A stretch of 41,215 bases of DNA, taken from the NCBI GenBank assembly GCA_024434165.1, contig QMIW01000033.1, forward strand, positions 1 to 41,215. Direction: 5' to 3'. The translations under genes and the position numbers were made by a program. This document shows positions 21,102 to 23,358 of this stretch, piece by piece. Source of the DNA: Chloroflexota bacterium (GTDB lineage: Bacteria; Chloroflexota; Anaerolineae; Anaerolineales; Villigracilaceae). How positions within the stretch are numbered: position 1 is the stretch's first letter; the number at the start of each line of letters is the position of its first letter. Below the pieces are notes generated by a model. The model was not told the DNA's origin and ran no database searches. It was given only the letters and a program-made list of their open reading frames with translations.

Positions 21102-21725
21102 TTACTTCCGCCCAAAGTCGGCGGGATTCTCGCCCCACAGTGCAGTATCCCATTTCAACACCCGATCTTCGGGAAGTTCATTCTCCGCCAGCCAGTTCTC
21201 GGCGCTGCGGATGAGCGCAAACAGAATGACGTTTTTGGGGGAGCGCTTCAATTTGGTTTTGCATTCCCCGGTATACACCCACGAAATCGCATTCTCCGAA
21301 TCGGAGTAGACGGGCACATGCACGTTATGCTTCACCTGCCACGTCAGCGCGTGGACGATTGCCAGGAACTCGCCGATGTTATTCGTCCCCTCTGCATAGG
21401 GACCCGCGTGGAAGATCTGCTCGCCCGTTTCCGTGTTCACGCCGCGGAACTCCAGTTTGCCCGGCGAGCCGCTGCATGCCGCATCCACACAAATCGAAGG
21501 CAGGACGGGCTTTACGCTGGCGGTCTTCCACCGTCCGCTCGAAGAGACTTTGCCTTTGTAGTCATCGTAGCGGGCGAGGTAGGCGGCGTCGGCTTCGGCT
21601 TCGCTCTCGAACGCCTTGTATTGCGCGCCGACGAATCCCTTCACCTGTTTCTCGCATTCCGCCCACGAGGTGAAGATACCCGTCCTGCGCCCCTTCCACA
21701 CCACATAATATTTCTGCTTCGGCAT
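21102..21725 (-). CDS. Viroplasmin-RNase H fusion (RNase HI type)
   Basis: 207 residues. The N-terminal 45 residues (KYYVVWKGRRTGIFTSWAEC) match the caulimovirus viroplasmin/RNase H N-terminal RNA-DNA hybrid-binding domain. The rest is RNase H: Asp81 (CVDAAC), Glu119 (NIGEFLAIVHAL), Asp142 (YSDSENAI) and Asp203 (NPADFGRK) give the DEDD set. It should remove RNA from RNA-DNA hybrids such as R-loops or Okazaki primers. Complete, all four catalytic acids present. It lies 54 nt upstream of the M50 gene on the same strand. Confidence 0.93.
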   Translation of the reverse strand: MPKQKYYVVWKGRRTGIFTSWAECEKQVKGFVGAQYKAFESEAEADAAYLARYDDYKGKVSSSGRWKTASVKPVLPSICVDAACSGSPGKLEFRGVNTETGEQIFHAGPYAEGTNNIGEFLAIVHALTWQVKHNVHVPVYSDSENAISWVYTGECKTKLKRSPKNVILFALIRSAENWLAENELPEDRVLKWDTALWGENPADFGRK

Positions 21726-21765
21726 ATTGTCAATTTTACTTCAATTCACCGCATGAATATTTGAC

Positions 21766-21793
21766 TTGACAAAAGATTGCCGTCACGTAAAAT
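21766..21793 (+). promoter_or_regulatory. Promoter of the sulfurtransferase unit
   Basis: TTGACA (21766-21771), a 16-nt spacer and TAAAAT (21788-21793). Transcription should begin near 21799-21802, only 2-5 nt before the ATG at 21804, leaving a leader of about 230 nt before the sulfurtransferase start. Confidence 0.75.
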
Positions 21794-21803
21794 ACGCGCG
21801 AAT

Positions 21804-21851
21804 ATGTTTACACGATTCCACCTTTGCTTGTGTCTTTCGCGGGGTTCGTAA
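21804..21851 (+). CDS. Leaderless 15-residue cysteine leader peptide (attenuator)
   Basis: ATG 21804 opens MFTRFHLCLCLSRGS and ends at TAA 21849-21851. Two of 15 codons are Cys (8 and 10: TGC 21825, TGT 21831), within His-Leu-Cys-Leu-Cys-Leu. No Shine-Dalgarno is present and the predicted transcript starts almost at the ATG, so translation would be leaderless. Actinobacteria carry comparable short Cys-containing leader peptides before sulfur genes, and leaderless polycysteine ORFs act as cysteine-responsive attenuators in mycobacteria (established knowledge). The gene downstream here is a sulfurtransferase. Role in cysteine sensing is inferred from codon content and position. Confidence 0.55.
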   Translation: MFTRFHLCLCLSRGS

Positions 21852-21993
21852 TCGCCGCCTGAGACCCAATCCCCGGATTAAGCAGTCAACTCTCCAGACG
21901 GTGAAACGCTCCCCGCGCCCGATTGACCTGCGCAGGACGATTTGCCGTGCCTCCCTCCCGATGATTTCGGGTTCGTTCGGATGTTGACTGCTT
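21838..21993 (+). promoter_or_regulatory. Structured attenuator-like leader before the sulfurtransferase
   Basis: CGCGGGG (21838-21844), which is codons 12-14 of the leader peptide, can pair with CCCCGCG (21911-21917), or its GGGG with CCCC (21871-21874). A long-range 11-bp perfect stem joins AAGCAGTCAAC (21880-21890) to GTTGACTGCTT (21983-21993), followed by TTTATATTT, like an intrinsic terminator. Inside are CCTGCGCAGG and CCCGA/TCGGG hairpins. A ribosome paused on the Cys codons would cover CGCGGGG and could switch the fold (inference). No known riboswitch class was matched. Confidence 0.5.
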
Positions 21994-22029
21994 TTTATAT
22001 TTACAAAATCAGGAAAAGGAACTTTAGCC

Positions 22030-22869
22030 ATGTCGTATGCTCACCCCGAATATCTTGTAGATACCGAATGGGTCGCCAATCACCTGAACGACCCGCAAGT
22101 CCGCATCGTTGAATCGGATGAAGATCCCCTGCTCTACGCGGTCGGGCACATCCCCGGCGCCGTGCAAGTGGACTGGTTCAGTACGCTCCAGCACCCGCTG
22201 CGCCGCGATTTCCTCACCAGGGAACAGTTCGAGGAGGTCTGCTCGAAGCTGGGCATCGCCAACGACACCACCGTCGTCTTCTACGGCGACAAGTCCAATT
22301 GGTTCGCCTGCTATGCGTTCTGGCTGTTCCAATATTACGGTCACGAGAAGGTCAAAATCATGAACGGCGGACGCACCAAATGGGAACAGGAAAATCGCCC
22401 CCTGGTGAAGGAGGTTCCTTCCTACCCGGCAACCGTCTACAAGGCGAGAGAGGCGGATAAATCCATCCGCGCCTTCCGCGAGGACGTGTTCAAGGCGCTG
22501 GAAGCGAAGAAGCCGCTGGTGGACGTCCGCTCGCCGAAGGAATATACCGGCGAACTTCTGCACATGCCCAACTACCCGCAGGAAGGCGCCACGCGCGGCG
22601 GTCACATTCCCGGCGCGGTCAACATCCCGTGGGCGCAAGCCGTCAATGAAGCGGATTCAACCTTCAAGTCTCTGGAAGAACTGCGCGCGCTCTATGAAGG
22701 GAAGAACATCCAGCCGGAAGGCGAGATCATCGCCTACTGCCGCATCGGCGAACGCTCCTCGTTGACGTGGTTCGTGTTGAAGTACTTGCTCGGTTATCCG
22801 AAGGTCAAGAACTATGACGGTTCGTGGACCGAATGGGGCAACCTGGTGGATGCGCCGATCGAAAAATAA
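22030..22869 (+). CDS. Thiosulfate/3-mercaptopyruvate sulfurtransferase (two rhodanese domains)
   Basis: 279 residues with an inactive N-terminal rhodanese domain (about 8-125) and an active C-terminal one whose loop is CRIGERS with Cys237 (TGC 22738-22740). It moves sulfane sulfur from thiosulfate or mercaptopyruvate to thiols through a Cys persulfide. The basic loop CRxGER favours thiosulfate. The sequence closely follows the actinobacterial CysA-type sulfurtransferases ([31 protein letters not shown]), the genes often preceded by Cys leader peptides. AAAGGAAC lies before ATG 22030. Followed by SufE, which also handles persulfide sulfur. Confidence 0.95.
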
Positions 22870-22880
22870 GCCGCAGGTAA

Positions 22881-22917
22881 ACCCGGGCGTACGGATAATT
22901 TATCCGTACGCCCGGGT
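22881..22917. repeat. 37-bp near-perfect palindrome between sulfurtransferase and sufE
   Basis: ACCCGGGCGTACGGATAA (22881-22898), one T, then its exact complement (22900-22917). No T-run follows, so it is not a standard terminator. It ends 9 nt before the sufE start codon, so in mRNA it would form a very stable hairpin next to that start and could uncouple or lower sufE expression, or protect the upstream mRNA. Confidence 0.85.
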
Positions 22918-22926
22918 CCATCCGTG

Positions 22927-23358
22927 ATGAATATGACTTTACCCAAAACCCTTCAAGACATTGTGGACGATTTCGCGGGCATGTCGCGCGAGGAAAAGCT
23001 CGAAACGCTCATCGCCTACGCTGAGTCCATGCCGGACCTGCCCGAGCGCTTCAAGGACGAACGCGCGAAGATGGAGCCTGTCCCGGAGTGTATGACGCCG
23101 GTCTTCATCATCGCAGAAAAAGATGCGAACGGCGGGATTCTCTTCCATCTTGACATTCCCAAGCAATCCCCCACCGTGCGCGGACTCGCCTCGATTCTGA
23201 CGAACGGGTTGAACGGCTGTACGCTCGAAGAGATTCTCGCCGTCCCTGCGGATTTTTACCTGCCCATGAATTTGCAGGAAGCCGTCTCGCAGCAGCGCAT
23301 CAACGGCTTCATCGGCGTGCTGGCGCACATGAAACAAGCCGCCGTTAAAGCAGGGTAA
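22927..23358 (+). CDS. sufE: SufE family sulfur acceptor
   Basis: 143 residues from ATG 22927; GTG 22924 and ATG 22933 are alternatives and no good Shine-Dalgarno is seen because the palindrome ends just upstream. SufE accepts persulfide sulfur from the cysteine desulfurase SufS and passes it to the SufBCD scaffold. The acceptor cysteine fits Cys55 in PVPECMTPVFI, and PTVRGLASILTNGLNG matches the conserved helix. No sufS or sufBCD here. Pairing with a sulfurtransferase under a Cys leader suggests shared sulfur-trafficking control. Confidence 0.92.
   Translation: MNMTLPKTLQDIVDDFAGMSREEKLETLIAYAESMPDLPERFKDERAKMEPVPECMTPVFIIAEKDANGGILFHLDIPKQSPTVRGLASILTNGLNGCTLEEILAVPADFYLPMNLQEAVSQQRINGFIGVLAHMKQAAVKAG

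Follow-up and report, generated by a model that had tools for sequence, protein, structure and literature searches.

The stretch of DNA analysed here (41,215 nt of contig QMIW01000033.1, hereafter the window) raises the question of whether a very short ORF, placed directly behind a strong -10 box and upstream of a sulfurtransferase gene, is a cysteine leader peptide and, if so, by which mechanism it would control the genes behind it. A preliminary description of this DNA had proposed a 15-codon ORF with Cys at codons 8 and 10 and no Shine-Dalgarno sequence, and this is what we found. The ORF, MFTRFHLCLCLSRGS, occupies positions 21804-21851 of the forward strand (ATG 21804-21806, stop codon TAA 21849-21851), with its Cys codons at 21825-21827 (codon 8, TGC) and 21831-21833 (codon 10, TGT). 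The promoter-like site, at 21766-21793 on the same strand, matches in 11 of 12 positions (-35 TTGACA at 21766-21771, a 16-nt spacer and -10 TAAAAT at 21788-21793), and the ATG lies 10 nt 3' of the -10 box with no Shine-Dalgarno sequence before it. Transcription is expected to begin about 7 nt past a -10 box. Judged from the position of the promoter, the transcript would start at about 21800 and carry a 5' UTR of about 4 nt, leaving no space for a Shine-Dalgarno sequence ahead of the upstream ORF (uORF).

An ORF of this size could arise by chance. In the whole window, MFTRFHLCLCLSRGS is the sole forward-strand ORF of 8-30 codons with a C-x-C; the reverse strand holds four such ORFs, two of them nested, with promoters of at most 7/12. 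The decisive evidence is comparative, and on that sequence evidence the leader ORF at 21804-21851 is confirmed as real and chance is excluded. The genes behind it had been named as a CysA-like sulfurtransferase and SufE, and both identifications held. The first (22030-22869, forward strand) is CysA2-like, contains two rhodanese stretches (Pfam) and resembles solved thiosulfate sulfurtransferases, PDB 1uar, 3hzu and 3hwi among them. The second (22924-23358, forward strand) encodes a SufE-family protein (Pfam) and starts 54 nt past the end of the sulfurtransferase. The interval between the two contains an inverted repeat (22881-22917; 18 bp, perfect, 1-nt loop), for which a genome search found no second place in the same genome.

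Is the leader conserved? Of 150 family genomes searched for the sulfurtransferase, 68 gave a match, many of the matches being weak and probably paralogous. At the 30 best sulfurtransferase loci, a homologous leader with the same uORF ending and the same RNA was present in 19, the window's own included, and absent from 11. The proposal that sulfurtransferase orthologues would be preceded by a conserved short Cys ORF was thus borne out at 19/30 loci, and the leader occurs far more widely. One sulfurtransferase locus, L017, retains a TTGACA promoter-like site and misses the leader, as if it had been deleted. In the window's own genome, a DNA search found a second copy on contig C46. Its uORF, MKTFDYCLCLGRGS with a stop codon, lies downstream of a ThiS-type gene and ahead of a PLP-dependent cysteine synthase-like gene; a covariance model recovered the window's copy and this one and no other. 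At L041 a JAB-domain gene comes next after the leader's cysteine synthase-like gene. This set of ThiS-type, cysteine synthase-like and JAB-domain genes resembles the mycobacterial CysO-CysM-Mec pathway.

Two covariance models, R1 built on 16 leaders and R2 on 102, were used to map the distribution of the element. R1 placed it in 121/152 genomes of the family, in 25 of 26 genera (E up to 0.001), and in 17/298 genomes of a sample of the class; with R2 the latter count rose to 30/298 (E up to 0.01), other families of the class included. In a sample of 400 genomes of the phylum, R2 found the element in 34, all inside the window's class; three matches of this sample (G690, G738 and G749) had no locus and were left out of the reading. 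When the distant or weak matches were read by eye, 17/17 had an in-frame C-x-C uORF and 16/17 a CysM, CysK, sulfurtransferase or DUF4395 gene downstream (blastp), the remaining one (L150) preceding a PLP enzyme of Cys/Met metabolism (Pfam). A pattern scan of a collection of species genomes, tuned to the leader type found outside the family, returned 37 stretches, 30 from records named as Chloroflexi, Chloroflexota, Anaerolinea(e), Anaerolineales, Anaerolineaceae, or Ardenticatenia and groups within it, and 7 from other phyla. An in-frame start codon was present in 29 of the 30 Chloroflexota stretches (28 ATG, 1 GTG or TTG), and one of the four gene types lay downstream in 26. Eight stretches without an in-frame start codon were rejected as chance matches: seven from outside Chloroflexota (L164, L169, L171, L176, L191, L193 and L197) and one from within (L181). 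The scan partly duplicates genomes already read, as eight loci from genomes of the window's class are identical over 600 nt to scan records, named as Ardenticatena sp., Ardenticatenaceae, Ardenticatenales, Ardenticatenia, Anaerolineae or Chloroflexi. The same identities put the window's genome in the class of these records and bear out the earlier guess, made from the letters of the window, that this DNA came from Chloroflexota.

We then asked whether the uORF behaves as a coding sequence among the relatives. The set comprised 103 leaders, that is 115 matches in one set of 100 sources minus 12 antisense matches, which were dropped because they fall opposite true elements on the other strand, the terminator of these elements being palindromic. 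All 103 contain an in-frame C-x-C uORF that ends in a stop codon (TAA 60, TAG 40, TGA 3). The first Cys codon is TGC in 100 leaders and TGT in 3, the second is TGT in all, and the residue between them is Leu in 60, Ser in 26, Met in 9 and another in 8. An ATG with an open frame was found in the Cys frame of 102/103 leaders, and in the other two frames of 2/103 and 5/103. Since the models contain the Cys codons, the matches are biased towards them; the frame result and the choice of stop codon are less so. Within the peptide, the C-terminal half, C-x-C-[LIMP]-x-R-G-S, is far better conserved than the N-terminal half, and the length before the first Cys is variable.

The leaderless layout was also compared among these leaders. 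The best promoter-like site upstream of the uORF scored at least 10/12 in 103/103, with a spacer that was nearly always 16 nt, a count that has no shuffled control. The distance from the -10 box to the first in-frame ATG was 6-24 nt in 79 leaders, with a Shine-Dalgarno-like site in 0/79, and 28-47 nt in the other 24, with such a site in 15/24. In the window, the promoter spacing is compatible with leaderless initiation, given the deduced start and a UTR of about 4 nt, and the relatives vary. Leaderless or near-leaderless initiation, as read from this spacing, therefore appears to depend on the lineage: the proposed layout would suit the window and the 79 leaders of its spacing class, and it is not a constant trait of the element.

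The leader RNA can form three structures that share strands, all of them read on the forward strand: a hairpin 1:2 (P1), an antiterminator (2:3 plus A:D) and a terminator (3:4 inside an outer stem). In the window, P1 (21832-21865; GTCT..GCGG with CCGC..AGAC) extends from Cys codon 10 to just past the stop codon and was defined from folds and covariation. In the antiterminator, arm B (region 2, 21852-21864), which begins immediately past the stop codon, would pair with region 3 (TCTCCAGACGGTGA, 21891-21904), and the pairing would be extended by arm A (21838-21844), the CGCGGGG located in the Ser-Arg-Gly codons of the uORF, and arm D (21911-21917), the CCCCGCG. Region 3 has the inner 3' arm, region 4, as its partner in the terminator, and around this inner stem an outer stem is formed by a 5' arm, AAGCAGTCAAC (21880-21890; folds, partner swap and pair counts), and a 3' arm with the U-run, GTTGACTGCTT (21983-21998; folds and pair counts). 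The fold of 21875-22002 was better than that of shuffled sequences (z -3.7, 0/200 shuffles), and that of the full leader, 21800-22032, only somewhat better (z -1.87, 9/200).

To evaluate these pairings we swapped the partners among 92 non-redundant leaders (91 for 3:4) and compared the pairing energies with those of 5000 permutations. Cognate partners came out stronger than swapped ones in four pairings, with z values of -7.0 for 1:2, -13.8 for 2:3, -12.9 for 3:4 and -16.7 for the outer stem and 0/5000 permutations in each case. The control pairings gave 2.3 (1:4), -1.7 (2:4; 235/5000), 2.7 (outer 5' arm with region 4), 0.2 (region 1 with the outer 3' arm) and 1.8 (region 2 with the outer 5' arm). 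Arms A and D gave -5.4 (0/5000, n=90), with controls of 0.3 and 1.6. Arm A reads GCGGGG in 96/102 rows of the leader alignment and arm D is exactly CCCCGC in 60/102; where GCGGGG is absent (six rows), the altered arm A still forms at least 6 pairs with arm D in five. The energy of the 2:3 duplex taken alone was less distinctive, with a median of -15.6 vs -12.0 in shuffled sequences, 15% of which reached the median. A duplex-scan overlap count for 2:3 was discarded as circular, because region 3 had been chosen by its fit to region 2.

Covariation was scored on the 102-row alignment (L050 fell outside the E-value limit), which was fitted to P1 and the terminator, not to the antiterminator. Paired cells and two-sided changes amounted to 90.3% and 41 for P1, 95.6% and 196 for the terminator, and 82.6% and 56 for the antiterminator, some pairs of which fail in a third to half of the rows; in all three, 0/500 shuffles reached the covariation score. 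Since the antiterminator was outside the structure of both covariance models, its support is not built in. In the earlier 16-row alignment the antiterminator already covaried above the shuffles; P1 had no two-sided changes there, and the covariation of P1 and of the terminator was not above shuffles. Permutations and shuffles ignore relatedness, for which the control pairings on the same sequences correct in part. One pair of P1 is U-A in 42 of the 102 rows and C-G in 24; as read from the alignment columns, its two partners are the wobble position of the Gly codon and the final base of the stop codon, which thus change in step. Outside the uORF, the most conserved bases fall in the alternative pairings.

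Every row (102/102) has a U-run, defined as 5 or more T in 6, behind one or both of the terminator stems: behind both in 60, the inner only in 32 and the outer only in 10. This rule is loose, and when the upstream part of each leader was shuffled, 274/5100 stretches satisfied it. In the window's own leader the U-run of the inner stem has been lost and a small additional hairpin is present within 21950-21980, which leaves a U-run at the outer stem only. As its inner stem is followed by GCCTCCC and the inserted hairpin, the outer stem would be the terminator of the window.

Which genes lie behind the leader? Downstream ORFs were typed by blastp to four reference proteins, and the nearest recognised ORF was counted. 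The first recognised gene was CysM-like in 54 of the 103 leaders, a sulfurtransferase in 25, CysK-like in 14 and DUF4395 in 5 (98/103 in total); the sulfurtransferase count is not an unbiased share, as the loci were partly picked by a sulfurtransferase search. At the five DUF4395 loci (L048, L106, L118, L121 and L122), a CysK-like gene is located about 880-970 nt further on. The same leader also precedes DUF4395 genes at L142 (= L170) and L147 (= L184). At L132 the leader has a serine acetyltransferase-like gene downstream (Pfam), and at L109 a ThiF-type gene about 490 nt downstream (Pfam), whose protein also has a rhodanese stretch; L117 resembles L109 by sequence, and the ThiF-type gene distances of the two are some 350-490 nt. 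The contigs of L105 and L129 end before any recognised gene. L131 carries two putative Cys attenuators in tandem upstream of a CysM-like gene, each with its own leader peptide, at 301-462 (MSFNCLCLKRDL) and 606-757 (MSYYCSCLRRGL).

What the sequences show directly is a conserved uORF, competing pairings that covary, and an association with cysteine and sulfur genes. We are confident that the leader is a cysteine-responsive, ribosome-mediated transcription attenuator of the trp/his kind that senses charged tRNA-Cys, and it very probably turns the cysteine and sulfur genes on at cysteine shortage. From transcription start and translation through stalling and termination to the cysteine response, the sequence of events that we infer is the following. 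RNA polymerase would begin about 4 nt 5' of the ATG, and a ribosome would load on the emerging 5' end and start on the uORF with no Shine-Dalgarno sequence to guide it. With charged tRNA-Cys scarce, this ribosome would wait at Cys codon 8 or 10. A ribosome covers roughly 12 nt beyond its A-site codon; counted from the first base of Cys codon 8, arm A starts 14 nt further on, and region 2 starts within a few bases of the stop codon. The leading edge of the waiting ribosome would halt just before or inside CGCGGGG, leaving region 2 free to pair with region 3, and a wait at Cys 8 would additionally leave CGCGGGG free to pair with the CCCCGCG downstream. The antiterminator would capture region 3 and loop out the 5' arm of the outer terminator stem, with read-through into sulfurtransferase-sufE. 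With ample cysteine, the ribosome would reach the stop codon and mask arm A and region 2; region 3 and AAGCAGTCAAC would then pair with their 3' partners, and the polymerase would stop at the U-run at about 21996.

These steps were also modelled by folding the window's RNA. With a ribosome waiting at Cys 8, arm A and region 2 are free and the RNA up to 21925 takes the antiterminator form (-31.2 kcal/mol); with the wait at Cys 10, region 2 is free (-15.0); a ribosome that has reached the stop codon covers arm A as well as region 2, and the terminator is left (-46.1). When the complete leader was folded, the terminator remained favoured over the antiterminator even with a stalled ribosome in place; the choice must therefore be kinetic and fall during transcription, as in other attenuators. 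Modelled without a ribosome, the nascent RNA up to 21925 preferred the extended antiterminator over P1 (-34.2 kcal/mol), so that P1 may or may not form first and the outcome in the absence of translation may go either way.

Mycobacteria offer a different precedent. Canestrari et al. are said to have described in 2020 leaderless polycysteine uORFs located upstream of cysA2 and other cysteine genes in these bacteria. The Chloroflexota leader resembles them in being a short Cys uORF, apparently leaderless in the window, before a CysA2-type sulfurtransferase or cysteine genes, with cysteine as the likely signal, and differs from them in its C-x-C, in its conserved antiterminator/terminator pair and in its phylum. 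Cys leader peptides are known in mycobacteria, Propionibacterium and Bifidobacterium, with no conserved terminator hairpin detected for the mycobacterial ones (PMC1262725). The mycobacterial layout given there, a Cys run near the stop codon and no terminator hairpin, is not that of the Chloroflexota leader, in which there is a C-x-C, the second Cys lies five codons before the stop in the window and the terminator is conserved. The leader upstream of mycobacterial cysA2 shows ribosome occupancy (PMC4633059), and a 2026 paper describes the mycobacterial leaderless polycysteine attenuators as translational (PMC13236596). The kinship with actinobacterial attenuators suggested in the preliminary description therefore holds for the idea of control by a Cys-codon uORF and would not extend to the mechanism, as an intrinsic terminator is predicted here whereas the mycobacterial attenuators are described as translational.

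Could the uORF nevertheless act in the mycobacterial manner, governing ribosome access to the sulfurtransferase start instead of termination? We consider this improbable. A leaderless Cys uORF before a cysA2-type gene is known from mycobacteria (PMC4633059), and the minimum-energy fold of the full leader, a fold of the window only, pairs uORF bases with the likely ribosome-site stretch downstream. However, stems with U-runs occur in 102/102 rows and the terminator stems covary, and in the window the competing arms end at 21998, leaving the probable ribosome site of the sulfurtransferase (about 22013-22020, by eye) outside them. An intrinsic terminator with a competing antiterminator fits transcription attenuation better than translational control.

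A second alternative, compatible with attenuation and slightly less probable again, is that the small peptide acts in its own right, say in metal or redox binding through C-x-C-L-x-R-G, or as an arrest peptide. The much better conservation of the C-x-C-[LIMP]-x-R-G-S half would agree with it, but both the residue between the Cys codons and the length before the first Cys vary. Moreover, RNA pairing can explain the conservation: CGG GGN, the Arg-Gly codons, serve as arm A in two stems, and Cys2-Leu contributes its GUCU to P1. An NCBIfam scan of the leader peptides, a weak test for such short peptides, gave no match.

That a metabolite-binding riboswitch is at work and the short ORF is accidental or secondary is very unlikely: a conserved structured RNA with a terminator does lie upstream of biosynthesis genes, but the Cys frame has its open ATG in 102/103 leaders vs 2 and 5 in the other frames, the stop is kept though TAA, TAG and TGA alternate, both Cys codons are kept, the most conserved bases outside the uORF sit in alternative pairings, and Rfam had no match. 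The Rfam search of 21700-22100 had no match at the gathering score, and up to E 5 nothing beyond one antisense match, to a Bacillus-plasmid RNA (17.5 bits vs a cut-off of 31), which was taken as chance; eight related loci likewise had none at the gathering score.

Transcription attenuation by charged tRNA-Cys places the leader beside two known systems. Enterobacterial trp and his attenuators follow a 1:2, 2:3, 3:4 logic, in which region 1 opens with the control codons and region 2 adjoins the stop codon. The Chloroflexota leader has the same logic and the same placement of codons and stop. It also has a short ORF with codons of the regulated amino acid (C-x-C in 103/103, ATG in 102/103), an antiterminator and a terminator that exclude each other on a common strand (region 3 with region 2 or 4), a predicted terminator stem with a U-run before the first gene (102/102 rows) and downstream genes for the synthesis or handling of the amino acid that the control codons specify (98/103, blastp). 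Unlike trp and his, it has Cys codons, a uORF that is near-leaderless in this lineage, the extra A:D clamp and a second, outer terminator stem round the first. In Alphaproteobacteria, the uORFC-8-2 motif before cysS in Rhodobacterales is predicted to act by ribosome-mediated transcription attenuation through charged tRNA-Cys (PMC8632094); it has tandem Cys codons, usually at positions 14-15, before the cysteinyl-tRNA synthetase gene. The two elements are alike in layout, each having a uORF in which two Cys codons are conserved and a stem that resembles a terminator (PMC8632094), and the Chloroflexota leader differs in its C-x-C, in preceding biosynthesis and sulfur-transfer genes, and in an antiterminator backed by covariation. 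Our literature search by title and start of abstract (the best 20 of 48 for some queries, with few subscription papers) found no description of this element, nor did the passages matched by term in PMC11109978, PMC2965389 and PMC3766115.

The expectation that Cys-leader control would extend to another phylum appears well founded, with conserved C-x-C uORF leaders across one class of Chloroflexota. The element would work like a trp/his attenuator, as a variant without a published description in the literature covered, and its response to cysteine is a prediction from sequence. With some hesitation, we lean towards a broader picture: a Cys regulon across this class under a single, hitherto unrecorded family of attenuators with an origin separate from those of actinobacteria and Alphaproteobacteria. 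In this picture, a near-leaderless ribosome would be the sensor, the last uORF codons would form an antiterminator clamp 14 nt past the first Cys codon, just beyond the waiting ribosome, and two nested stems could each terminate. A 2013 survey that included five Chloroflexi genomes suggested that amino-acid attenuators may have originated in gammaproteobacteria, with very few horizontal transfers (PMC3766115); here the full anatomy of an attenuator is seen in a phylum remote from them. In 121/152 genomes of one family, leader peptides below the usual size of gene finders are now marked. The sulfurtransferase-sufE pair and DUF4395, a domain of unknown function, become tied to cysteine supply, and the near-leaderless uORFs may serve as a natural test case of whether attenuation can run on such initiation. 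The Chloroflexota gain a predicted cysteine sensor whose codons can be checked one by one.
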